This document shows positions 24,279-35,547 of a DNA stretch of 46,400 nt, piece after piece. Where the stretch lies: contig SVOQ01000021.1 of NCBI GenBank assembly GCA_015066345.1, forward strand, positions 1 through 46,400, written 5' to 3'. The stretch's first letter is position 1; each line of letters begins with the position of its first letter. The DNA is from Oscillospiraceae bacterium (GTDB taxonomy: Bacteria > Bacillota > Clostridia > Oscillospirales > Acutalibacteraceae). The position numbers were made by a program, and so were the translations under genes. Under the pieces are notes generated by a model that did not search any database, was not told the DNA's origin, and saw nothing but the letters and a program-made list of their open reading frames with translations.

Positions 24279-25898
24279 TCATTCGTCAATTTCGATTCCG
24301 CGTTCTTTACGAAGAACAGCAAGTTCGCTGAAAATCTTTTCTTTCTTTTTACCTGTAAGGTCGTAGAAGAAAAGAGGAATTGCACAAAGAAGAAGGCTAA
24401 GACCGGGAACGATAGTAACAAGCGAGAACATACCGAAATTCTGAATCGGTTCAAGGTTCATTGCAAAGTCAACAATGCTTTCGGCTTTGCTGTTAAGTGT
24501 AGCAACGTCAAGGTCGATAATCATATACATACCGATAATCATAACAGTTGCAAATGCATTACCGATTTTATTAACAAAGGACTGACAAGCGGAGCCGAGA
24601 CCCGTATTTCTGAAGCCTGTTTTCCATTCCATAAAGTCAAGACAGTCGCAAACCATTGCGAACGAAACGTTGTTGATAACACCGAGGGGAATACTTGAAA
24701 TAAGCATAAAGGGAATGCAAAAAACAAGATTTTTTGTTGTCCATCCTACAAAAATTGTGATACAACTTGCAATAAATCCACCAATGCAGGAAGCAATCAT
24801 AATCTGCTTATATTCAAATTTCTTGTAAAGCTTGGGAAGGAAGAGCATTGCGCCGAACATACCAACAGCGGCACAAATCTGAATAACAAGAGCAACGGTA
24901 GATGTGTTTTTGATATAGTCGGCTTCAGTTGATATTGCCAAAGAGGCAAATTCTGTTCCTTTTTCAACTTTTGAAAGAATGGTAAACATATCAATAAAAG
25001 AAAGTTTTCCTTTGAAAAATGCAATAATAGGCTCAAAAGTAACGTAAAGACCGGAATAACGGGCTACGTGGGGAGCCGCTGCCTGAAGCATATATCTACC
25101 GAATGAAAGAACACCGGAAAGAACAACTAACATAAGGGGTTTACAAGTGAATATTCTTTTAAGTGTACCGGGTTCACCGGGTGCTTTTTTCTGAGCATCG
25201 GGAATCTGGATTCTTTCTTTTGTTTTAAAGGTTGAAAGAGTGAACAGGGGCATACCGATGGCAGCCATTGAAATAGCCATAACAGCATATTTAAAAACAT
25301 CGAACTCATCTTCACTCATATAAGAGAAGAAAGAGGTATACAGTAAGCCCATAATTATGGGAAGTGCAACTGTAACAGCTGAACCGATACCACCAACGGT
25401 TTTACCGTAGGAGATAAGATTTCCTCTTTCCTTGGGATTGGGAGTCATAACATTGGGCATACTCCAGAAGGGAACGTCACTTGCGGTATAAACCATACCC
25501 CAGATAACGTAAACGGCGGCTACGAAAACATAGAGCCATATTGATTTATTCTGTGTATCAAAGCCGGGATTTACAAACATAAGTATTGTAAGTGCGGCAA
25601 TGGGTATAGCGGTTATTAAGGGGTAGGGACGCATTCTGCCGAATTTGGTTGAGCGTCTGTCAACAAGCATACCCATCATAGGGTCGTTGATAGCATCCCA
25701 CACACGGGCGAGAAGCATAAGCATAATAACAAACATTGCGTTAAGGGAAAGCACGTTCATATAGTAGTCAGTTATGTAACTTGACATACAACTGTAAACA
25801 AGACCCTGACCCAATGCAGCAATAGCATAAGCGCGGACTTCGTTTTTAGGAACATATTTTTTACCGATGGAATCGGTAGCAGGTTTAGTTTTAGCCAT
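24279..25898 (-). CDS. GPH-family sugar:cation symporter (MelB-like)
   Basis: This 539-residue major-facilitator transporter has the MelB/GPH signature in its N-terminal half: RVWDAINDPMMGMLVDR (about residues 66-82), with the two Asp that bind Na+ or H+ in MelB. The C-terminal half has IPLGVINNVSFAMVCDCLDF, also typical. A region near residues 290-330 is an unusual long insertion between helices. It imports a glycoside with a cation. An AGGAGG precedes the ATG. Its position next to the glycosidase and sulfatase genes suggests it takes up their products or substrates. It may run on the sodium gradient made by the decarboxylase at 41443-44989. Confidence 0.9.
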   Translation of the reverse strand: MAKTKPATDSIGKKYVPKNEVRAYAIAALGQGLVYSCMSSYITDYYMNVLSLNAMFVIMLMLLARVWDAINDPMMGMLVDRRSTKFGRMRPYPLITAIPIAALTILMFVNPGFDTQNKSIWLYVFVAAVYVIWGMVYTASDVPFWSMPNVMTPNPKERGNLISYGKTVGGIGSAVTVALPIIMGLLYTSFFSYMSEDEFDVFKYAVMAISMAAIGMPLFTLSTFKTKERIQIPDAQKKAPGEPGTLKRIFTCKPLMLVVLSGVLSFGRYMLQAAAPHVARYSGLYVTFEPIIAFFKGKLSFIDMFTILSKVEKGTEFASLAISTEADYIKNTSTVALVIQICAAVGMFGAMLFLPKLYKKFEYKQIMIASCIGGFIASCITIFVGWTTKNLVFCIPFMLISSIPLGVINNVSFAMVCDCLDFMEWKTGFRNTGLGSACQSFVNKIGNAFATVMIIGMYMIIDLDVATLNSKAESIVDFAMNLEPIQNFGMFSLVTIVPGLSLLLCAIPLFFYDLTGKKKEKIFSELAVLRKERGIEIDE

Positions 25899-25960
25899 AT
25901 TAACCTCCTGAATAGAAATTATAAATTAAGATTATCATATTTACACCGCTTTTGCAACAA

Positions 25961-25993
25961 AAAATAAAGAAACCACAAAAAGTGATTTCTTTT
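25961..25993 (-). terminator. Terminator following a decayed tRNA 3' end
   Basis: On the minus strand an 8-bp stem, GAAATCAC/GTGGTTTC with one G-T pair, and a TTTTT loop is followed by ATTTTTTG. It lies directly after the tRNA-like 3' end at 25994-26012 in the minus direction, the same arrangement as at 30648 and 32869. Confidence 0.65.
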
Positions 25994-26012
25994 TGGTGAG
26001 GGAAAAGGGACT
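25994..26012 (-). repeat. Decayed tRNA-Leu 3' end (possible old attachment site)
   Basis: Nineteen bases ending in a CCA complement match the 3' end of the tRNA-Leu gene at 32869 with one mismatch (TGGTGaGGGAAAAGGGACT). Similarity then fades. It is in the same orientation as the intact tRNA and is also followed by a terminator. This may be the trace of an earlier integration. The rest of 26013-26095 shows nothing recognisable. Confidence 0.5.
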
Positions 26013-26095
26013 TTGATTATGAGAACAATACTGTTAAAAGACATAAAGAGAAAAATTCTCACGAATCCCCATTCTTTTGTCCCCTTAAACCTGGT

Positions 26096-26255
26096 TAGAG
26101 TGGGTAAAGCGTATCCGAACCAGCCTTAAACGGCGAGGTTTCGGTACTTTTGCCCGATTTGCCCTTGAAAGGCGCCAGATTTACGAGTATTTTAACGAAA
26201 TATGAGTGGAAAAGACTATCCCAAAATCTGGTTCGGATACGCTTTACCCACTCTA
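26096..26255. mobile_element. MITE-like element with 26-bp perfect terminal inverted repeats and TA ends
   Basis: Positions 26098-26123 and 26228-26253 are perfect inverted repeats of 26 bp (GAGTGGGTAAAGCGTATC... and its complement), both flanked by TA. The whole 156-bp body has no reading frame of note. TA at both ends is the target-site duplication of IS630/Tc1-mariner elements, so this is probably a non-autonomous member of that group. A second inner pair, CCAGATTT/AAATCTGG, could form an alternative hairpin. It lies 90 bp beyond the stop of the GH18 gene. The rest of 26256-26345 shows nothing recognisable. Confidence 0.65.
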
Positions 26256-26345
26256 GATAAGCGTTAGGTGGAAACTATTTGACATACACTACATTATTTT
26301 TGTCGGAAAACGGTTTTTTGAATGAATTTCACCGGAACAATTATA

Positions 26346-27368
26346 TCAAGCGGCTGCCTTTTCCACAGCATTTCCGATAGCACGGATAAGTGAACCCTCC
26401 TGTGATGAAGGAAGATCACAGGTATAGTGCCAGAACATAACACCACCGTAACCGTTATTTACAGCATAGTCGGTTTTCTTTTCAATTACAGAAGGTGTAT
26501 TGAACCAAAAATCTTTGTTGATTTCATCGCAATGGTACCAACCGTCAGCATCTATGTTTTCATAACATTCGCTGTATCCATACCAATATGCAGACATATC
26601 AGTAGGTCTTGAATAAAACGGAAGTCCGATATGCACTTTAGAAGGATATATAGCTTTAAGTTTCATACCTTCAATAATGGCTACAGTATCGTCATAGGTA
26701 GCGTGTTTGCCATCACTGTCCACATAATCGTAGGTCATAAGCTCAAAATAATCAACTGCGTTTGCTGCTTTTCGGGTATAGTTCATATTCCAATTCACAA
26801 ATGCAACACCAAGAGTACGCTCACCCAATTTCTCATCTAAAGAAACAAGGAATCTATTATAAATCCTCCATGCTTTTTTAGATAACGGATATTCATAATC
26901 AAAATGAACACCGTCGAAATTATATTCATCAAGTATTTTTACAATGTTTTCCTCTAAAACGCCACTCTTAAATGCCTTGTTGTGCTCTTCGCTTTGGGAT
27001 TCCATCTGCTCCTCCCACACGGTAGAGTCAGTTACAGAACCGGGGCCTAATAAATTAAGTGTGATATCCACATCTCTGTCACCTATTGCCGTGCGAAGAT
27101 TTTTGAGGGCTATTTCAAGTATATCTTTATCGTAAACTATTTCTCCTTTGTTATCAAATGATGCGCACTCAAAAAGAATAACGTCTGTAATTATATCAAA
27201 ATCCTCCGGATGAAGAGCCTCTTCTGACTGAATAAATTCGCCCCTCACATAAGCAGTAACTCTGAAGTCCTCAGCTTTTTGAGGAGCTTTAGCGCATCCT
27301 GCAAAGCACAACAAAAGAATTGCACCACAAACAATCAATGAAATTATTTTTAAGATTACTTTTTTCAT
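26346..27368 (-). CDS. GH18-family glycosidase-like lipoprotein
   Basis: This 340-residue protein has a lipoprotein signal: KK start, a hydrophobic stretch (residues 5-20) and a lipobox FAGC with Cys25. The mature part is a TIM barrel of glycoside hydrolase family 18, with the active-site strand FDGVHFDYEYP holding Asp152, Asp157 and the acid/base Glu159; the fourth position of the usual DxxDxDxE is His. The later strand FELMTYDY and the C-terminal GGVMFWHY are also family-like. It would cleave beta-1,4-GlcNAc bonds, such as in chitin, N-glycans or peptidoglycan-like chains, outside the cell. It follows the sulfatase by 46 bp and is probably in its operon. Confidence 0.88.
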   Translation of the reverse strand: MKKVILKIISLIVCGAILLLCFAGCAKAPQKAEDFRVTAYVRGEFIQSEEALHPEDFDIITDVILFECASFDNKGEIVYDKDILEIALKNLRTAIGDRDVDITLNLLGPGSVTDSTVWEEQMESQSEEHNKAFKSGVLEENIVKILDEYNFDGVHFDYEYPLSKKAWRIYNRFLVSLDEKLGERTLGVAFVNWNMNYTRKAANAVDYFELMTYDYVDSDGKHATYDDTVAIIEGMKLKAIYPSKVHIGLPFYSRPTDMSAYWYGYSECYENIDADGWYHCDEINKDFWFNTPSVIEKKTDYAVNNGYGGVMFWHYTCDLPSSQEGSLIRAIGNAVEKAAA

Positions 27369-27414
27369 AATATCTGCCTTCTATATCAATTTAACATTGT
27401 TTAATAAAACTTTA

Positions 27415-28731
27415 TCAGTGGTTTTTTACTTTTAGTGGTTTGTGGAAAACAGGTTTTCTTTCGCCTGCATTGACCATTTCTCTTGTAAGTAAACTGCGCA
27501 TCTGACTAAGAATTTTTTTATAATTTTCGTTGTTAACAAGGTTGTTTTTCTCGTGTGGATCATTTTCCATGTCGTATAGATAATCATCAAAATAATGAAT
27601 CGCTTTTGGTTTGTGCCATCCTGAGCCTATTGCACGTGCAGAGTATTTCCATCTTTTTGTTCGAACAGCTCTCCCTATATGGGATTCACTTATCTGAACA
27701 AAAACACAATCCCTTTCAGGGGCCTCTTTATTTACAACCGGTAGAATGTTACCCGAATAGCTTTCAGGAATCTCTATATCTGCAAGACTTAAAAGTGTCG
27801 GCGGAATATCAATAAGACTTACTAAACAGTCTATGGGGCTACCCTTCTTGATGGCGCCGCCACCGAAAATAAGCGGTGTGTGTATGCTCGAATCATGACA
27901 ACTGCGTTTATATTCAGCGTTTCGTGTTTTGAAGTGACATCCGTGGTCGCTTGTATACACAAAAACAGTGTTATCATACATTCCCTTTTCTTTAAGTGTT
28001 TTTACCAGTTTACCTACATTTTCGTCAAGGGCGTGAATGGCGGCAAGGTAATCGGGATATTCTTCTTTATAATCCCCCTTGAGAAAGGTTAAATCTTCAG
28101 GCAAAGGATAGTGGCGGAAGTTGTCAACTGTATCCCTTGGTCCTTCAAAATGTCCCCTATCGTTCTGATGGTGGGGTTCAAGCTGAGATATGAACATAAA
28201 AAATGGCTTTTCATCGTTATGGTTATTAATATACTCAATGGCAAATTCATTTATACAGTCTGCTCTGTAACCGGTAAAATCAATTCGATTACCTTCTTCA
28301 TCAAATACATAACCGTCATATCCGTGAGATGTAAATTCCAAAACATCAGCTGCCCGCCAATATTTATAACCGCCTTGCCTGTTTTGAGGAACAGCAGTTT
28401 TTTCACAATGAACACCTATGCCCGGATAACGGTCTGATGCAAGGTGCCATTTTCCTATATATGCTGTATCATAACCATTTTCATTGAAATAATCGGCTAA
28501 AGTTTTTGTATTCTCTTTTAATGCTATTCCATTCCAATAGCAGTGGTTTTCAGTTGCATACTGACCTGTTTGCAGACATGCACGGGCAGGACCGCATACA
28601 GGTTGGCACGTAAAAGAATTTTCAAAAAGCAAACCTTCTTCTCCCAATTCCCATACATTTGGCATAAGAGTACTGTTAAGTGTATCCCAACGCTGTTGGT
28701 CTGAAAAATAGAAAATAATATTCGGTTTCAT
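27415..28731 (-). CDS. Type I sulfatase (formylglycine-dependent)
   Basis: This 438-residue sulfatase has the signature C-x-P-x-R-x4-T-G as CGPARACLQTG, with Cys46 as the residue to be converted to formylglycine. The metal site begins at SDQQ (Asp11-Gln12), and a second metal region is YTSDHGCHFKT. It hydrolyses a sulfate ester. No signal peptide is present, so it is probably cytoplasmic, which is unusual for sulfatases acting on polymers and suggests a small imported substrate. Anaerobes usually activate such enzymes with a radical-SAM maturase; none is in this window. A perfect promoter lies upstream, and the gene is divergent from the GH5 gene. Confidence 0.93.
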   Translation of the reverse strand: MKPNIIFYFSDQQRWDTLNSTLMPNVWELGEEGLLFENSFTCQPVCGPARACLQTGQYATENHCYWNGIALKENTKTLADYFNENGYDTAYIGKWHLASDRYPGIGVHCEKTAVPQNRQGGYKYWRAADVLEFTSHGYDGYVFDEEGNRIDFTGYRADCINEFAIEYINNHNDEKPFFMFISQLEPHHQNDRGHFEGPRDTVDNFRHYPLPEDLTFLKGDYKEEYPDYLAAIHALDENVGKLVKTLKEKGMYDNTVFVYTSDHGCHFKTRNAEYKRSCHDSSIHTPLIFGGGAIKKGSPIDCLVSLIDIPPTLLSLADIEIPESYSGNILPVVNKEAPERDCVFVQISESHIGRAVRTKRWKYSARAIGSGWHKPKAIHYFDDYLYDMENDPHEKNNLVNNENYKKILSQMRSLLTREMVNAGERKPVFHKPLKVKNH

Positions 28732-28804
28732 AAAGTTTCTCCATTAGACTTATTTTACGGATGATTTCTATGTCTAATTACAATACGATTTAAAATACCT
28801 TTTC

Positions 28805-28833
28805 ATTATACGACTATTCGGTTGCAGTGTCAA
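28805..28833 (-). promoter_or_regulatory. Perfect sigma-A promoter of the sulfatase operon
   Basis: On the minus strand, TTGACA (28828-28833), a 17-bp spacer and TATAAT (28805-28810) give an exact consensus about 75 bases before the sulfatase ATG. Confidence 0.85.
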
Positions 28834-28898
28834 TTTTTTCAAGCTACCGGACAAATGTTTTTAAGTTGGAAATAAGGAAGCTCAGGTTAGTGAGTTGG

Positions 28899-28927
28899 TT
28901 GACATATTGACATAGGTAAATTATAAT
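28899..28927 (+). promoter_or_regulatory. Perfect sigma-A promoter of the GH5 gene, with tandem TTGACATA
   Basis: TTGACA (28899-28904), a 17-bp spacer and TATAAT (28922-28927) give an exact consensus 38 bases before the GH5 ATG. The sequence TTGACATA occurs twice in tandem (28899-28914), so half of it overlaps the spacer. It may be an operator or only a duplicated -35. Confidence 0.85.
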
Positions 28928-28965
28928 AATCAGGTAGGTGCTAATTATTTTTTGAGGATGATTTT

Positions 28966-30453
28966 ATGAATAAAATAGTTGTTGACGGTAAAAAATTTGT
29001 AGATGAGTTTGGAAGACAAAGAATATTTAACGGTGTAAACTACTGCGATAAGGGTGAATTTAACGGTTGGGGAGTTCCGCGGACCTTTCATCTTAATGGA
29101 AATGAAGATACCGAAAACGCAGTACGCGAGCTCAGTGAGAAAGGTTTTAATATTATTCGTCTCGGTGTAACGTGGGCGGCAATTGAACCTACACCGGGAA
29201 AATATGACGAAGAATATATTGACAGAATCGAAGCTTTTGCGAATCTTTGTGAAAAATACGGGATATATTTTTATCTTGACTTGCACCAGGACTTATACGG
29301 TGGTCCGAGTAATGCAGGTGACGGTGCACCTGTGTGGGCTTGTATGACCGACGGCAAAAAATTCAAGCCTGTAAGATTTGTGTGGGCAGAAGGCTATTTC
29401 TTTAGAAAAGCTGTTCACAAATGTTTTGATAATTTTTGGGCAAATAAAGAGTATGACGGAATTGGAATTCAGACACGATTTCTTAATATGTGGTCGCATC
29501 TTGCCGAAAGATTCAAAGACCATCCCGCACTTTTCGGTTTTGATTTGTTCAATGAGCCATTTCCCGGCACAAGCGGAGGTAAAGTTTTCCGAAAGCTTAT
29601 ATTTAATCTGGCAAAAACAGTACTTACAGATAAACGCTGTAAAAAGTTATGGATGATAAAACAGCTTCTTACAGGCAACGCTGTCCGTGTTTTGGAGCCT
29701 TTCAGTGATCCTGAACTTTTCCGTAAAGTTACAAGTGCGGGTGATGAGCTTGTAAGAAAATTTGATGAGGAAATTTATTCTGATTTTATCAGCAGAGCCG
29801 CCAAAACTATAAGGAATGTTACTGATAACGGAATAATCATTATGGAAAATACTTACTACTCCAATCTCGGTATACCATACTGTGCAAAACCCGTAAGCTA
29901 CGATGGAATAAAAGAGAAGAATCTGTGTTACACACCACACGCCTATGACCTTATGGTAGATACCCCTGCCTATAAATACGCAAGTGATTCCCGTGTGTGG
30001 TCAATCTTCAGCGAGCAGAAAAAGAGTGCGGACCGTATGGATGTTCCTTTGATGGTCGGAGAATGGGGCGGCCATTCGGATGGCTACGAGTGGCTTTCTC
30101 ACATAGATTTTCTTTTGGAGAAATTTGATGAAAATCAATGGAGCCATACCTATTGGTCATATTACCGTGAAATGTTTGAAAGTCCCATAGCGGAAAGTCT
30201 TGTAAGAACAGTGCCTGTTGCAGTTTGCGGTAAGATTAATAGTTATAAACACGATAAGAAGAATAATGTTTTTATTCTCGAGTTTAATCAGGAGAGACAA
30301 TTTGATGTTCCCACAGTAATATACGCTCATAAAGAAATTGAGAGCATTGAAACAGACGGTGAATATGAAATTATTTCTCTTGGTAAAAACGGCGGAAGAA
30401 TAGAAATAAGAACAAACATTGGAAATCATAAGGTAACTATAAAGTTTAAATAA
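28966..30453 (+). CDS. Endoglycoceramidase-like GH5 glycosidase
   Basis: This 495-residue protein has the GH5 TIM barrel and the features of the endoglycoceramidase branch: LDLHQDLYGG (about residues 104-113), GDGAPVWA, the acid/base Glu197 in FDLFNEPFPG and the nucleophile Glu366 in MVGEWGG. A small beta domain follows at the C-terminus. Such enzymes release the glycan or glucose from ceramide or related lipids. There is no signal peptide, which differs from secreted endoglycoceramidases, so it may act on imported or internal glycolipid-like compounds. It has its own consensus promoter and a strong terminator, so it is a single-gene unit. The exact substrate is uncertain. Confidence 0.87.
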   Translation: MNKIVVDGKKFVDEFGRQRIFNGVNYCDKGEFNGWGVPRTFHLNGNEDTENAVRELSEKGFNIIRLGVTWAAIEPTPGKYDEEYIDRIEAFANLCEKYGIYFYLDLHQDLYGGPSNAGDGAPVWACMTDGKKFKPVRFVWAEGYFFRKAVHKCFDNFWANKEYDGIGIQTRFLNMWSHLAERFKDHPALFGFDLFNEPFPGTSGGKVFRKLIFNLAKTVLTDKRCKKLWMIKQLLTGNAVRVLEPFSDPELFRKVTSAGDELVRKFDEEIYSDFISRAAKTIRNVTDNGIIIMENTYYSNLGIPYCAKPVSYDGIKEKNLCYTPHAYDLMVDTPAYKYASDSRVWSIFSEQKKSADRMDVPLMVGEWGGHSDGYEWLSHIDFLLEKFDENQWSHTYWSYYREMFESPIAESLVRTVPVAVCGKINSYKHDKKNNVFILEFNQERQFDVPTVIYAHKEIESIETDGEYEIISLGKNGGRIEIRTNIGNHKVTIKFK

Positions 30454-30555
30454 AAACTACAACCGAGTAAGGCTTCTTCTGATAAGTTATGTGATTATAG
30501 TCGAAGCAGAAAGTTGCCGTTTGTCACCTCTGTAAGCCGAATAATAAGAGTTGTT

Positions 30556-30597
30556 GAGAGAACAAGGTAAAGACCCTGTTCTCTCGTTTTTCTTTTC
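30556..30597 (+). terminator. Rho-independent terminator of the GH5 gene
   Basis: A 9-bp stem (GAGAGAACA/TGTTCTCTC, 12-base central region) is followed by GTTTTTCTTTT. It lies about 100 bases after the GH5 stop codon. Between 30454 and 30555 no gene is seen. Confidence 0.88.
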
Positions 30598-30605
30598 TTG
30601 CCCAT

Positions 30606-30647
30606 TTATATAAAAATAGAGCCCACACAAAAGTGTGCGCTCTATTT
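30606..30647 (-). terminator. Terminator following the duplicated tRNA-Leu 3' end
   Basis: On the minus strand a long stem (ATAGAGC plus CACAC arms with one mismatch, AAAA/TTTT loop) is followed by ATTTTTATATAAA. It lies immediately after the tRNA-Leu fragment at 30648-30701 in the transcription direction of the tRNA. Confidence 0.75.
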
Positions 30648-30701
30648 TGGTGCGGGAAAAGGGACTTGAACCCTCAAGAACTTACGTTCATATGAACCTG
30701 A
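30648..30701 (-). repeat. Duplicated 3' part of tRNA-Leu (candidate attachment site)
   Basis: Fifty-four bases are identical to 32869-32922, the 3' part of the tRNA-Leu gene from the anticodon loop through CCA, with a single mismatch (30688). The offset is 2221 bp and the orientation is the same. Similarity stops abruptly at 30702, so no full tRNA is present. This is the pattern left when an element integrates into the 3' end of a tRNA gene. Beyond it, 30702-30776 shows a short weak echo of the tRNA D-arm side, possibly chance, and nothing else. Confidence 0.8.
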
Positions 30702-30776
30702 TGTTAACAAGACCTGGGTGATACGCCACAAACCTAGTAGAATCAAGGGTTTTGCTTTTCGATTTCTGCTTTCATT

Positions 30777-31769
30777 CTATTTTTTTATATATCGTTGGTT
30801 TCTGCTATTAGGTTTGTCGGGTTCAGTCATAATAACAAAACCGTCACTGATTGCAGGATTAAGATAATTCTTTCTCAACGCTTCTTTTGATTTCAATCCT
30901 AAAAGTGATAAAATTTCATTCGCTGTATATGGTGTATCAAATTCCATTACATTAAGGAGCTTTGTAACATATTCGGAAATGTTGCTTCCCGGCGAAGTAA
31001 TAGAACTGCCAACCTCATCAAGAATTGCATTTATCTGTTTTAATATGAATTCAATAAATGCTGTACTTGTTCCGTCTATATGGCATTTTGAAATAGCGTC
31101 ATAATAACCGCTTTGGAATTTTTCTATCTGGCTTTCTATAGGGATGAATTCAAAAATCGGTTGCCATTTTGCAAGAATTGCAGAATGCCAGAGCCTTGCC
31201 ATTCTTCCGTTACCATCTGTAAAGGGATGAATAAAAACAAATTCATAATGAAAGACTGCAGCAAGAATTAAAGGATGAACTGTATTTTTATTTTTTCTCA
31301 TCCAACTGAACAAGCTTTCCATTTGTTCAGGAACAAATTTTGCAGGTGGCGCCATAAATATACATTTATCACCGGCAAAAACACCTTCTTCACCAAGGCG
31401 GAAGTCACCACTCATATCCACAAGATATTTCGTCATAATCCCGTGAAGGCGTTTCAATTCTTTAATGCTATATACATCAACAGTTGATATTTCCTCATAA
31501 GCGGCATAAGCATTTTTAACTTCTTGGATTTCTTTTTCTGCACCAAGTACTGTTTTGCCGTTGATAACATCCTTAACTTCACCCAAAGAAAGAGAGTTAG
31601 CCTCAATTGCAAGGGATGAATGTATTGATTTGATTTTATTGTTTTTCCTCAAATGTGGTTTTGAATTAAGATTACTGCGTTCTGTAACTCTGCCGATTTT
31701 TTCTGAAATTGATGCAACAAGGCTCAAAATTTTATCTGTAATCTCATATGGTGGTGTGTAACCGGACAT
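30777..31769 (-). CDS. Fic domain protein
   Basis: This 330-residue protein has the Fic active-site motif HPFTDGNGRMAR (from His181), which transfers AMP or another nucleotide part to a target protein's hydroxyl. An autoinhibitory-helix-like motif, SSLAIEAN (Glu56), is at the N-terminus, with Ala where Gly or Asn is usual. The C-terminus (about 270-330) looks like a winged-helix DNA-binding part. This is the common three-part layout of chromosomal class II Fic proteins. It has a GGAG RBS, and a tandem 12-bp repeat lies upstream. It lies between two copies of the tRNA-Leu 3' end. Its target is unknown. Confidence 0.93.
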   Translation of the reverse strand: MSGYTPPYEITDKILSLVASISEKIGRVTERSNLNSKPHLRKNNKIKSIHSSLAIEANSLSLGEVKDVINGKTVLGAEKEIQEVKNAYAAYEEISTVDVYSIKELKRLHGIMTKYLVDMSGDFRLGEEGVFAGDKCIFMAPPAKFVPEQMESLFSWMRKNKNTVHPLILAAVFHYEFVFIHPFTDGNGRMARLWHSAILAKWQPIFEFIPIESQIEKFQSGYYDAISKCHIDGTSTAFIEFILKQINAILDEVGSSITSPGSNISEYVTKLLNVMEFDTPYTANEILSLLGLKSKEALRKNYLNPAISDGFVIMTEPDKPNSRNQRYIKK

Positions 31770-31787
31770 AAAAACACTCCATTTAAC

Positions 31788-31811
31788 TTGCTTATTATCT
31801 TGCTTATTATC
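31788..31811 (-). repeat. Tandem 12-bp repeat upstream of the Fic gene
   Basis: TTGCTTATTATC occurs twice in direct tandem (31788-31799 and 31800-31811), about 20 bases upstream of the Fic start codon. The position between promoter and RBS suggests an operator, perhaps for autoregulation by the protein's own winged-helix end, but this is inference. Confidence 0.55.
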
Positions 31812-31862
31812 TTACCACATTTGATGTGAAATATCAATATTTTAATACAAGTATTATTTATT

Positions 31863-31941
31863 TTATAGCTTTAGCCAGGGGCAAGCAGAGCAGTCGGCTA
31901 TCCGCCAACCGTAAGTTACGGGCAGAAGCCCAAACCCACTT
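31863..31941 (-). other. GC-rich short open fragment between Fic and GIY-YIG genes
   Basis: A stretch richer in GC than its surroundings lies between the two genes. On the minus strand it is open for about 25 codons, with translated end WRIADCSACPWLKL and stop. It has no RBS or start. It looks like a remnant of a longer gene, perhaps from a mobile element, but the family was not identified. Confidence 0.3.
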
Positions 31942-31959
31942 TAATTAGAATGTTTTTGT

Positions 31960-32682
31960 TTATTTCACTAAGTTTGGATATTTTCGCAGATAATATTTTA
32001 AATCCTTTTCAGACACCGCAGACGACAATTCTTCGATTGTTACAAAGGGAATGAAGTCTTTTTTTCTACGACTTGCAAAAATAGCCATATTAGCAGAAGC
32101 AGAAGAGTCCGTATAGGTATCAGTAGAACCAATTCCACCAGCAGTCCTGTTTAAAGTATATACAGGATTAAAACTGCGAACTATTTTTTCTTCTAAAGAA
32201 TATATGTTACATGTTTCAATGTAAAAAACTCTTGTTGTATCTAATGCGCCAAATGCATCAATGGACAGAACAGAATTACATATATCACCAAATATTAATC
32301 TTTCCAAAGATTGTCTTTTTCTCCAATGTCCTTGTATTCGTTTTTTTATGTCTGTTGATTGACCTATATAAACTTGGTTATAGTCATCCAAAACCATCAT
32401 ATATATACCTTCAACATAAGATAGGGTATTTAAATCTTTACATTCTATGAATTTATGTTTTTTGCATTGTTTTGCTATGTATTCTGTAAACTCATTTTTA
32501 TCAAGCGATTTGAAATACCTCATATTTAAGTCGTAATTCAAACTTGCTTTAGGGATTTGCGCTTGGTAGTGTTCGGGTTCCCAATTAGGCATTCCTTCGG
32601 GCTCCGCAGATAAATAGAATTCTTTGTTAATGTGATTTGATACCTTTTCTTGAACTTTAACGCCTAAATGAACAATATTCAT
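31960..32682 (-). CDS. GIY-YIG nuclease-family protein
   Basis: This 240-residue protein has an N-terminal part of unknown fold (1-85) and a GIY-YIG nuclease core: EGIYMMVLDDYNQVYIGQST with GIY at 92-94 and YIG at 105-107, the catalytic Arg115 in DIKKRIQGHW, and a Glu near residue 165 in YSLEEKIV. It would cut DNA once the target is recognised by other parts. The start at 32682 (MNIVHLG) is preferred because AAGGAG lies about 8 bases upstream; the longer frame has no RBS. It is next to the tRNA-Leu gene inside the tRNA-bounded segment, so it is plausible mobile-element or defence cargo. Confidence 0.85.
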   Translation of the reverse strand: MNIVHLGVKVQEKVSNHINKEFYLSAEPEGMPNWEPEHYQAQIPKASLNYDLNMRYFKSLDKNEFTEYIAKQCKKHKFIECKDLNTLSYVEGIYMMVLDDYNQVYIGQSTDIKKRIQGHWRKRQSLERLIFGDICNSVLSIDAFGALDTTRVFYIETCNIYSLEEKIVRSFNPVYTLNRTAGGIGSTDTYTDSSASANMAIFASRRKKDFIPFVTIEELSSAVSEKDLKYYLRKYPNLVK

Positions 32683-32825
32683 TACATGTGCTCCTTGTGC
32701 CTTTTTATTTATTATAACGGTCAAGAATTAAATTTACAAGTTAAACAAAATGAAACCTCTATTTGCCAGATGCATAACTTTAAGTTATGCACCTGCTTTT
32801 TTGTTGTGATTGTTTTTTCTTTGCC

Positions 32826-32866
32826 AATAAAAAATGCCCAAAGCCTTGATACATAAGGCTTTGAGC
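32826..32866 (-). terminator. Terminator of tRNA-Leu
   Basis: On the minus strand a 12-bp stem (GCTCAAAGCCTT/AAGGCTTTGGGC with one mismatch) is followed by ATTTTTTATT. It lies 2 bases after the CCA end of the tRNA. Confidence 0.9.
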
Positions 32867-32868
32867 GA

Positions 32869-32955
32869 TGGTGCGGGAAAAGGGACTTGAACCCTCAAGA
32901 ACTTACGTCCATATGAACCTGAATCATACGCGTCTGCCAGTTCCGCCATCCCCGC
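32869..32955 (-). tRNA. tRNA-Leu (anticodon CAG)
   Basis: This 87-base tRNA gene has an encoded CCA (32869-32871). The acceptor arm GCGGGGA pairs with TTCCCGC (one G-U), then discriminator A. The anticodon stem is TATGA/TCATA with loop TTCAGGT, so the anticodon is CAG, reading CUG. A long variable arm (about 15 bases) and GGTTCAAGTC T-arm are typical of tRNA-Leu. It is followed by a terminator. Its 3' part is repeated at 30648 and, in decayed form, at 25994. Confidence 0.95.
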
Positions 32956-33295
32956 ATATTTAATGAATAATGAAGAATGAATAGTGAATAATTTCGGGGC
33001 ACTTAGTGCCAATTAAAATTAAGTAGTTGTAACGCAAAGCTCAACCTCTCTGCGTAAGGAGAGAGGGGGACCGCCATTAAAAGATTTCAGCTATAAAATA
33101 AGTTTAATGCGTGTGGTCAATTTGTTGTATGTATAGATTTAATCGGAGCGGTGGAGAGTCCCAATCACATATTGTATAGACCAACTTAATAGTAGCGGTG
33201 GTGGGTAGTTCTCTTTCGTTTTTTCTTCACTTAAAGAGAGAACATACAACGAATTTTACCACACAAATCCTGTGATGTCAACAAAATCAAAGGTT
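32956..33295. repeat. Non-coding region with repeat-like segments upstream of tRNA-Leu
   Basis: No gene is seen. Visible are a GAATAATGAA-type simple repeat (about 32961-32992), a GGCAC/GTGCC hairpin (32998-33010), a CCTCTCT/AGAGAGG hairpin (33043-33064), and two imperfect copies of a GTATAGA...AGCGGTGG segment (about 33129-33160 and 33175-33205) with GTTCTCTTT/AAAGAGAGAAC arms at the end. ACCGCC near 33070 and GCGGT near 33196 are inverted relative to each other. This could be a MITE-like element of about 200 bp, but its ends are not clear. Confidence 0.4.
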
Positions 33296-33958: not shown

Positions 33959-34077
33959 CTGCCTCACCTCTGTAATTAATGTACCATAAACCAATTCGTA
34001 ATGCAAACTTTTTCTTGCTTTTTAGGGCGGTAAATAGTATCATTAATATGTATAATTATGTAATGGGAGGTTTGTAT

Positions 34078-35547
34078 ATGTATCTTTGTCCCGAGCCTAA
34101 GAAGGTGGAGTTTAATGGTGGTTATTACCGTTTTGAAGTTGGTACGGAGCCCGTTGTTAATACAGTTATTACACCTTTACTTTCTCAAAAAGAGAGTTAT
34201 CGCATTACAATTGATGAAAATGGTGTTTCAATTGAGGCGGCAGACAAGGCGGGGGTATATTATGCAAACATTACCCTTAAGCAACTTCTTATGAATTACA
34301 GGGGATGCTTACCCTGTTTATACATATATGATGAGCCCGAGTTTTATTATCGCGGATTTATGATTGACTCCTGCCGTCATTTTTTCACTGTTGATGAAAT
34401 CAAAAAGATGGTAAATGCCGCATCACTTTTTAAATTCAATAAATTCCATTTTCATCTTTCGGATGACCAGGGATTCAGAGTTGAAATTGACTCTTACCCC
34501 AATCTTACAACTATCGGCTCTGTAAGACCATCTTCGGATTTCGGCAGGGGCGAAAATGACCCTACCCCGTATGCTCATTATTATACTAAACAAGAACTTA
34601 AGGAAATTGTAGAATATTGTCGCGAAAGATATATTGAGGTAATTCCCGAGTTTGATGTTCCGGGTCACACCACCGCTGTTATTGCATCTTACCCCGAGTT
34701 ATCCTGTACGGGTGAAAAAATCGAGCCCAGAACTACTGCGGGTGTTTTTACCGATATACTTTGCGGTGGTAACCCCGAAACTCTTAAGATGATATACTCG
34801 GTAATTGATGAATTACTTGAGGTTTTCCCCGGTAAATATTTCCACATAGGCGGGGATGAAGCCCCTAAAAATAAATGGAATGTTTGTCCTAAATGTCAGG
34901 CAAAGGTTAAAGAATTAAATCTTAAAAATACTGAGGAGCTTCACGGTTGGCTCGTAAATGAAATTTCCCTCTACCTTAAAAAGAAGGGTAGAAAAACAAT
35001 TTGTTGGAATGAAGCCATAAGGGGCGGAAATATCGAAAAGGATAATGTTACGGTTGCCTGGTGGCTTGATAAAACCAAGGCAAGTGTTGAATGGGCTAAT
35101 GCGGGTAACCCTACCATAGTTGAGAGTTTTACACCCTACTATGCGGATTATCCCTACGGTATGCACTCTTTGAGAAGTGTTTATCTGTACAATCCCCGTA
35201 AAATAAAGGGACTTACATCCCTTGGTGCGGCGTCCGTGGTAGGTATTGAGTCCCCCATCTGGACGGAGTACATAAGAGATTTTGAAACTCTTACTAAAAT
35301 GTGTTTCCCACGTTGGCTCGCGGTAGCCGATACCGCCTGGAATGGCAATGATAACAAGGATTTTGCGAAATTCCTTAAAAATACAGTATTCTTCTGTGAA
35401 ATTTTAAGGGAATACGGCATTACCGCCGCAAGTGAAAAGGAATGGAATATTCTTCCCCATAGCAGGGCATCACAGACAATCCGTTTCTTTAAAAACTCTT
35501 TATCAAAAGATTTCGTGAAGAATTTATTAAAAAAGGACGAGGATTAA
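34078..35547 (+). CDS. Beta-N-acetylhexosaminidase, GH20
   Basis: This 489-residue glycosidase would release terminal beta-linked GlcNAc or GalNAc by substrate-assisted catalysis. It has a short N-terminal alpha/beta domain (1-85), then a TIM barrel with YRGFMIDSCRHF, FHFHLSDDQGFR and the catalytic pair Asp260-Glu261 in HIGGDEAP, and later Trp-rich strands. No signal peptide is seen, so it acts in the cytoplasm, probably on imported oligosaccharides. The start at 34078 has GGGAGG upstream. Its stop overlaps the next gene by one base (TAATG). It is the first of a seven-gene plus-strand series. Confidence 0.93.
   Translation: MYLCPEPKKVEFNGGYYRFEVGTEPVVNTVITPLLSQKESYRITIDENGVSIEAADKAGVYYANITLKQLLMNYRGCLPCLYIYDEPEFYYRGFMIDSCRHFFTVDEIKKMVNAASLFKFNKFHFHLSDDQGFRVEIDSYPNLTTIGSVRPSSDFGRGENDPTPYAHYYTKQELKEIVEYCRERYIEVIPEFDVPGHTTAVIASYPELSCTGEKIEPRTTAGVFTDILCGGNPETLKMIYSVIDELLEVFPGKYFHIGGDEAPKNKWNVCPKCQAKVKELNLKNTEELHGWLVNEISLYLKKKGRKTICWNEAIRGGNIEKDNVTVAWWLDKTKASVEWANAGNPTIVESFTPYYADYPYGMHSLRSVYLYNPRKIKGLTSLGAASVVGIESPIWTEYIRDFETLTKMCFPRWLAVADTAWNGNDNKDFAKFLKNTVFFCEILREYGITAASEKEWNILPHSRASQTIRFFKNSLSKDFVKNLLKKDED

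Follow-up and report, generated by a model that had tools for sequence, protein, structure and literature searches.

Evidence for serial integration of integrase-less cassettes at a tRNA-Leu gene of an Oscillospiraceae bacterium

How does a bacterial tRNA-Leu gene come to be followed by truncated copies of its own 3′ end, with unrelated genes in between? This question is raised by a 46,400-nucleotide stretch of a gut Oscillospiraceae bacterium (assembly GCA_015066345.1, contig SVOQ01000021.1), hereafter the window, which is the entire contig C29 of a 2.33 Mb draft genome (G000). Its sole tRNA gene, a tRNA-Leu(CAG) at 32869-32955 on the minus strand, was called by both ARAGORN and Rfam. We consider it highly probable that the locus is a two-deep nest of mobile cassettes that lack an integrase and that took this tRNA gene as their target; on the evidence of sequence comparison, serial site-specific integration of such cassettes is well supported.

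The tRNA-Leu gene and its displaced 3′ ends

The 3′ half of the tRNA gene (32869-32922) recurs as a direct repeat at 30648-30701 (minus strand), with 53/54 bases identical and an offset of 2221 bp, leaving at the latter place a displaced half that resembles the attR scar of an integrated element. This copy starts at TCAGGTTC (TCAGG...) in the anticodon loop, so that the uncopied part of the intact gene starts at 32923. Farther downstream, 25994-26012 (minus strand) matches the 19 3′-terminal bases of the tRNA at 18/19 positions and has its breakpoint in the T-loop. All three 3′ ends lie in one orientation, and a hairpin with a run of T was read by eye behind each of them, bearing out what the original prediction had noticed from the letters of the window. 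An intact tRNA gene with a same-orientation displaced 3′ fragment on its 3′ side is the arrangement that defines a tRNA-integrated island.

A chance repeat was ruled out as the origin of these copies. The 19-mer had no match in the window beyond these three places, with up to two mismatches and on either strand; a model of independent bases gives an expectation of 3.9e-6 for matches with at most one mismatch, and none of 40 windows simulated under a first-order Markov model contained any.

The terminators and the tRNA sequences themselves carry information on the order of events. Behind the intact gene stands a double terminator (T0T0, 32763-32868, minus strand; T0 proper at 32826-32868), which sequence comparison marks as a conserved left cassette end. 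The terminator behind the 54-bp copy (T1, 30612-30647, minus strand) resembles the one directly after the intact tRNA gene in the relative G018, and the third (T2, 25960-25993, minus strand) contains, at 25969, the point where homology to the leader of the G018 major facilitator superfamily (MFS) transporter gene stops. The intact tRNA genes of G018 and G015 have a 3′ half identical to the displaced 54-mer, which together with T1 (30612-30701) is 93% identical to G018 over 90 bp. The 3′ half of the intact gene in the window has instead the sequence found in G008 and G003, with one mismatch to the displaced copy. This pattern points to a new tRNA 3′ half having arrived with the newest unit.

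That unit carries two cargo genes, both on the minus strand: a GIY-YIG protein gene at 31960-32724 and a Fic protein gene at 30777-31769. The GIY-YIG protein matches the PADLOC UzuA model with an E-value of 4e-59, and its domain score of 22.0 is slightly below the Pfam cut-off of 22.6. The Fic protein matches the PADLOC SoFic model (E-value 1e-34) and reaches only 44 bits on the NCBIfam SoFic model against a cut-off of 550, so that the SoFic name is a loose one. Fic exceeds its Pfam cut-off, as do the three remaining cargo candidates between the two displaced copies: a GH5 glycoside hydrolase (GH) gene at 28966-30453 on the plus strand, and sulfatase (27415-28731) and GH18 (26346-27368) genes on the minus strand. 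As had been predicted, no integrase was found by Pfam search among the island genes (25994-32955). The prediction of an inner unit bounded by the 54-bp repeat and holding Fic and GIY-YIG genes also stood; its crossover can now be placed more exactly, in the anticodon loop.

Recurrent ends and changing cargo in relatives

Comparison of 22 genomes of the genus revealed a recurrent sequence, which we call Y, on the side of the cargo facing the displaced half. In the window it spans 30702-30765 (minus strand), with a hairpin AAACC/GGTTT around 30730-30754 followed by a motif leading to the anticodon-loop core. Y occurs at 9 sites in 8 of the 22 genomes, each time immediately before a tRNA-Leu 3′ half (9/22 genomes matched at first; G019:C7 and G013:C112 were removed for lacking the core). 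Four of these halves have a CAG anticodon (window, G013, G014 and G016) and five have TAG (G003, G006, G007 and twice in G008), and the terminal bases of Y follow suit, reading ATCAG before CAG halves and RTTAG before TAG halves. Crossover in the anticodon loop, a known sub-site of tRNA integration, was seen in the window and at the nine Y junctions. TTGACA and TATTAT boxes are present in 7/9 Y copies and missing from those of the window and G016.

A second recurrent junction, X, consists of a tRNA-Leu 5′ half cut at the anticodon loop and joined to a conserved GGTAACMTAYYCTAAGTGCAAGG, then a promoter-like stretch. Thirteen of the 22 genomes matched, mostly by the tRNA 5′ part alone, and five were accepted as X sites (G003, G008, G013, G014 and G018). 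In four of the five, X leads on to a complete tRNA-Leu whose sequence differs. In the fifth, on G014:C10, three cut 5′ halves stand in tandem (allele B, allele A and an altered A), with a fourth at the very end of the contig, before any complete tRNA; one X copy of G014 reads GGTTAC instead of GGTAACMTAYYCTAAGTGCAAGG. Placing Y beside X gives TGTTACC-RTYA-GGTAACA, the kind of inverted repeat that an attP core should have. From these sequences X and Y would be the two ends of one element family, although no joint between them was found in 253 loci or in viral contigs. Two further loci were seen in passing. In L083, a tRNA-Leu(TAG) with an X-type footprint is followed, about 5 kb away, by two adjacent serine recombinase genes (G013:C101:12647-14354), possibly connected with it; in L022 (G011), a 23S rRNA intervening-sequence protein gene (PF05635, 12543-12890) lies between a tRNA-Leu 5′ half and a complete tRNA-Leu(CAG).

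The sequence between the tRNA gene and the distal host gene varies from genome to genome. A GH20 hexosaminidase gene (33979-35547, plus strand; also proximal to the tRNA in G008, G014 and G018) and an MFS transporter gene (24279-25898, minus strand; shared with G018 and G014), both identified by Pfam and comparison, flank the island in the window, in G018 and, over the two contigs C10 and C41, in G014. Between tRNA and MFS gene the window holds UzuA, Fic, GH5, sulfatase and GH18 genes and G018 holds GH38 mannosidase and Fic genes; in G014, of which the right part was seen, Fic, a HepT/MNT-like pair, Y and a 3′ half precede the MFS gene. The same flanking host genes thus enclose different cargo. 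Fic stands directly before Y in the window and in G003, and before the HepT/MNT-like pair and then Y in G014. The stretches examined in G008 contain Fic without UzuA, together with a 177-residue protein gene 99.8% identical to one in G015, and the stretch examined in G015 lacks Fic. Neither G008 nor G015 has a match to the UzuA-like gene at the corresponding place, and both share with the window a 75-bp GC-rich repeat inside the inner unit (31868-31942).

The left end, too, occurs with varied cargo. T0T0 precedes differing cargo in G008, G014, G003 and G007, where it follows a tRNA-Leu(TAG) (G008, G014, G003) or a displaced 3′ half (G007). Behind it lie genes for TIR-NACHT, kinase and Card1-like nuclease proteins in G008:C34, a BlaR1/BlaI pair in G014, an 82% relative of that pair in G007 and a 162-residue protein gene in G003. 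BlaR1/BlaI-like pairs adjoin tRNA-Leu sequence in three species (L026, L028 and L069, the first by Pfam and the others by similarity). Stacking recurs as well: G007 and G016 show Y with a 3′ half on top of an older unit, and two Y ends lie on G008:C34.

Cargo is far more alike between species than its surroundings, evidence that it has moved between them. The Fic gene of the window is 97.3% identical to that of G008, 96.3% (over 840 nt) to that of G014, 95.3% to that of G003 and 87.7% to that of G018, whereas the identities of GH20 are 77.2% for G008, 76.2% for G014 and 83.9% for G018, and a 7.5-kb core region of the window is 72-75% identical to G014; this flank and core baseline covers G008 and G014, with no core value for G003. 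The sulfatase and GH18 genes are 91.8% and 92.8% identical to those of G016, against 71-73% for the core.

These comparisons establish the anatomy of the units, their recurrence and stacking, the variability of their cargo and its transfer between species, all of which a mechanism should account for. We propose that a cassette would open with a tRNA 3′ half, replaced in relatives by a complete tRNA-Leu behind a promoter-like stretch, and with the terminators that come next. It would close with Y, which terminates in the bases of the anticodon loop: TCAG where the target gene has a CAG anticodon and TTAG where it has TAG. The cassette would be inserted into the tRNA gene by strand exchange at this short core, and the gene would keep its function through the new 3′ half or whole tRNA-Leu that the cassette supplies; the old host 3′ half would be displaced downstream with its terminator, behind Y. 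Entry of the next cassette at the same site would let old halves accumulate. The newest unit in the window, 30702-32868 together with the 3′ half of the tRNA, would measure about 2.2 kb and bring the UzuA-like and Fic genes; the older one would hold the sulfatase and GH18 genes, and perhaps GH5. Catalysis would come in trans, presumably from a tyrosine integrase of the kind found beside a Y-type hairpin elsewhere in the order, and the cassette ends may still be able to recombine.

The suggestion of such an integrase comes from a search of 345 genomes of the order, a sample that excludes G003, the source of the Y query. At most two candidates per genome were scored in the order-wide searches for Y, X and tRNA-Arg, so the counts are lower bounds. 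Y matched 16 of the 345 genomes, G000 along most of its length and 14 genomes of other genera at the hairpin AACCCTTGATTYTACTGGGTTT. Thirteen of these 14 hairpin loci lie at a gene end: six at lysS, three at guaA, two at a tRNA-Arg-like 3′ end and two at tRNA-Leu (lysS, guaA and tRNA-Arg being identified by eye, without family search). ARAGORN called no tRNA at L094, L100 or L097; L097 nevertheless reads as a whole tRNA-Leu(CAG). Both tRNA-Leu loci (L097 and L099, from other families) hold tyrosine integrases, of 407 and 381 amino acids, and in L099 the order is tRNA-Leu(CAA) 5′ half, hairpin, full tRNA-Leu(CAA) and tyrosine integrase gene. The hairpin is possibly a marker of integration sites across the order. 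It adjoins lysS or guaA 3′ ends in L095, L096, L098, L101-L105 and L107, often near contig ends. X gave one weak match outside the genus, a near-absence that is weak evidence. The Y core was found in no viral contig and in six genome contigs, five attributed to genomes of this genus and one, from Chitinophaga, taken as chance; the X pattern was likewise found in no viral contig.

Recombinase candidates and alternative origins

If an integrase acts in trans, its gene might be expected near related sites. We found no match to the integrase family PF00589 on any contig of the 22 genomes with a Y or X site. We surveyed 58 loci covering 63 of the 64 PF00589 matches in these draft genomes, with flanks of up to about 3.5 kb, shorter at contig ends (the match left out, on G021:C356, is a 114-base fragment), and no cognate partner at tRNA-Leu was seen among them. 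Ten of the 58 loci have tRNAs for Met, Pro, Ser, Ala or Val, and seven have a hairpin-like match with up to two substitutions. Serine recombinases were rejected as the driver, since no PF00239 match lies on any Y-site contig; the four PF00239 genes of G000 are all on contigs other than that of the window. Nor did a vehicle emerge when window positions 30640-32960 were used as a query: the matches in 13 plasmid and 6 phage records were all of tRNA size or confined to short pieces of the Fic region, with a coverage of 10% or less.

Several observations weigh against a nest of trans-mobilized cassettes. The sole PF00589 gene of G000 is Xer-like, if under the Xer cut-offs, which fits the predicted lack of an integrase; none of the 58 PF00589 loci has a Y core or an ARAGORN tRNA-Leu nearby. 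The empty site and the circular junction called for by the original prediction were both sought and not found, there being no strict empty site among the relatives compared and no Y–X joint in 253 loci or in viral contigs. The window shows no visible X or displaced 5′ half, and its Y copy, like that of G016, lacks the promoter part. The tRNA difference that we take as diagnostic is a single base, which parallel mutation could explain. In G018, the Fic gene directly adjoins the MFS leader, and the junction holds no tRNA fragment. Finally, the relatives are draft genomes (five named ones being metagenome assemblies), with several key sites near contig ends. One apparent empty counterpart, a related tRNA-Leu(CAG) without cassette signs in G004, was rejected, as its neighborhood differs (by eye, it faces HU- and MazG-like genes).

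Some of these points suit a different history, in which prophages or integrative and conjugative elements with their own integrases entered the tRNA gene and left deletion remnants, so that nothing now moves as a cassette. The lack of PF00589 on Y- and X-site contigs, the decay of tRNA copies to 20, 19 and 9 bp and the G018 junction, which implies that deletions contributed, all agree with such fixed relics. Against them stand the same Y end with different cargo in eight genomes and Fic genes 95-97% identical across species, which are easier to explain by small units that moved recently than by large ones that decayed independently, and we regard fixed relics as a rather unlikely account of the locus. 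We think it very improbable that Y, the 3′ half and the terminator form a conserved small RNA gene kept for its function. The promoter-like boxes of most Y copies would suit such a gene, as would the G003 copy, which folds beyond its shuffles (z-score of -3.0, with 2/200 shuffles as good, terminator included); yet the window and G016 copies have no such boxes, the stem, judged by eye, shows little variation and no clear compensatory change, no Rfam match rises above chance level, and in some copies the tRNA part has decayed to 20 or 19 bp. It is scarcely credible that the copies arose with no mobile element involved, by tandem duplication or by homologous recombination near the tRNA. Tandem 121-bp units in G014 could grow by unequal exchange, but the Y and X junctions contradict this origin for the locus: breakpoints fall in the anticodon loop at the Y and X junctions read, the cargo is unrelated, the terminators behind the copies in the window differ and the same Y stands at two different tRNA genes.

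The older unit is read less directly. In G016, a sulfatase and GH18 pair is followed within about 100 bases by Y and a 3′ half starting at the anticodon loop; the matching stretch in the window has an element resembling a miniature inverted-repeat transposable element (26096-26255, with 28-bp perfect inverted repeats 104 bp apart), between GH18 and only 19 bases of tRNA. Because the G016 pair precedes Y and the longer half, we favor the 19-bp copy being a decayed remnant of the same arrangement, so that the predicted older unit holds for GH18 and sulfatase and is uncertain for GH5, which has a 67% match in G008 about 14 kb from the tRNA. The breakpoint in the T-loop also recalls palindromic units found behind many tRNA genes of G000, of which this copy could be a trace. 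Such units do occur at tRNA-Leu in G009 and behind Y and 3′ half copies of G013 and G006; the window, however, has no type-1 module of these units, and the G016 pair precedes Y and an anticodon-loop half, which makes this origin of the copy possible and, in our judgment, doubtful.

The palindromic units were observed in their own right. In the stretches of G000 covered, 12 of 45 distinct tRNA genes are followed by a repeat of their own 18 final bases (up to two mismatches), and 10 of these copies start less than 250 bases from the tRNA start; downstream sequence was short for several tRNAs. The commonest unit, about 150 bp long, consists of a terminator, an inverted T-arm copy, a GC-rich module with short inverted repeats, a direct 3′-end copy and a terminator, the direct copy starting at the T-loop and each copy deriving from the tRNA in front. 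Outside the window, G000 loci L172, L178, L183, L184, L186 and L192 carry such units behind tRNAs for Ala, Met, Leu (CAA), Glu, Arg, Gln, Ser and Pro. The type-1 module matches 12 times in G000, 11 times behind tRNAs (counting the C10/C6 overlap) and once without a tRNA within 1.5 kb, and in 17 of the 22 genomes of the genus. Among 34 distinct units, 21 lie behind a tRNA of the same strand within their locus; of these, the 3′ copy matches its own tRNA strictly best in 20, and the inverted T-arm does so at least as a tie in 19 and strictly in 14. A copy of this kind, joined to a different module, was seen at three of 12 tRNA-Arg loci of other genera (G048, G153 and G261, the last from the same family). 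A seemingly split tRNA-Leu(TAG) at a contig edge of G000 was dismissed as a cassette: exactly 127 bases are shared by the ends of contigs C10 and C6, which we read as a break of the assembly where such units stand in tandem. At L178 (G000:C6, 19211-19666), two 5′ copies precede a full tRNA-Pro(TGG), one cut in the D-loop beside a GC-rich module and the other near the anticodon loop beside an integrase-type hairpin. Apart from these units, about 32960-33240, upstream of the tRNA in the window, has partial matches on several other contigs of G000 and is a dispersed intergenic repeat.

No viral contig or phage was found to contain the module, and a limited literature search turned up no description of the units. 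If they move between tRNA genes, an insertion mechanism that copies its target would be needed; we know of none from other mobile elements, and none turned up in the same search. Tentatively, and with less confidence than doubt, we raise the idea of two tRNA-parasitic layers acting together in this lineage, integrase-less defense and metabolic cassettes that exchange the host tRNA-Leu for one of their own at the anticodon loop and a non-coding palindromic unit of about 150 bp.

Comparison with known systems

Site-specific integration at tRNA genes is known in principle; the form seen here is unusual in being integrase-less, small, serial and partly defense-bearing, with tRNA replacement in relatives. 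A SoFic-kind Fic gene has passed from species to species as part of a very small, integrase-less unit, and the same kind of site houses other defense-like genes (UzuA-like, TIR-NACHT and HepT/MNT-like). The nested halves would give a readable record of arrival order. As to integron gene cassettes, G000 has no integron integrase: its PF00589 gene scores 88.7 bits on the integron model against a cut-off of 265.

Cis-mobilizable elements (CIMEs) are cargo flanked by att sites, without recombination genes, that stack at one site by accretion. The window unit resembles them in its att-like flanks (by anatomy only) and in having no recombination or transfer genes among its open reading frames. CIMEs are moved by a related integrative element; here no integrase-bearing partner was found at tRNA-Leu in the genus, among 63 of the 64 PF00589 matches.

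Also similar in layout are the ssrA islands of Dehalococcoides (PMC3146451), 15 of which lack an integration module and which likewise lie serially behind one RNA gene with displaced 3′ fragments; they differ in targeting tmRNA, in a T-loop crossover and in a serine recombinase, DsiB, on the module-bearing islands. The tRNA-targeting islands defined by Islander (PMC4383910) share with our locus the intact tRNA, the same-strand displaced 3′ fragment downstream, the anticodon-centered crossover and tandem arrays. The integrase filter of Islander would reject this locus, which has no integrase gene, and the inner unit barely exceeds its 2-kb limit; integrase-based searches of this type would pass over such sites.

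The X sites of the relatives recall tRNA-dependent lysogeny (PMC10865867), which shares the short core, the split host tRNA and a complete tRNA of the same isotype beside the cut. There the elements are phages of the actinobacteriophage kind, whereas here they are small cargo cassettes of Clostridia with no integrase aboard, and the window itself has no cut 5′ half. An element-encoded tyrosine integrase, a trait of tRNA-dependent integration, is absent from the Y- and X-site contigs of the genus and present at L099, in another family. The relatives are another likely case, outside actinobacteriophages, of tRNA-splitting elements that bring a complete replacement, a question left open by that study (PMC10865867).

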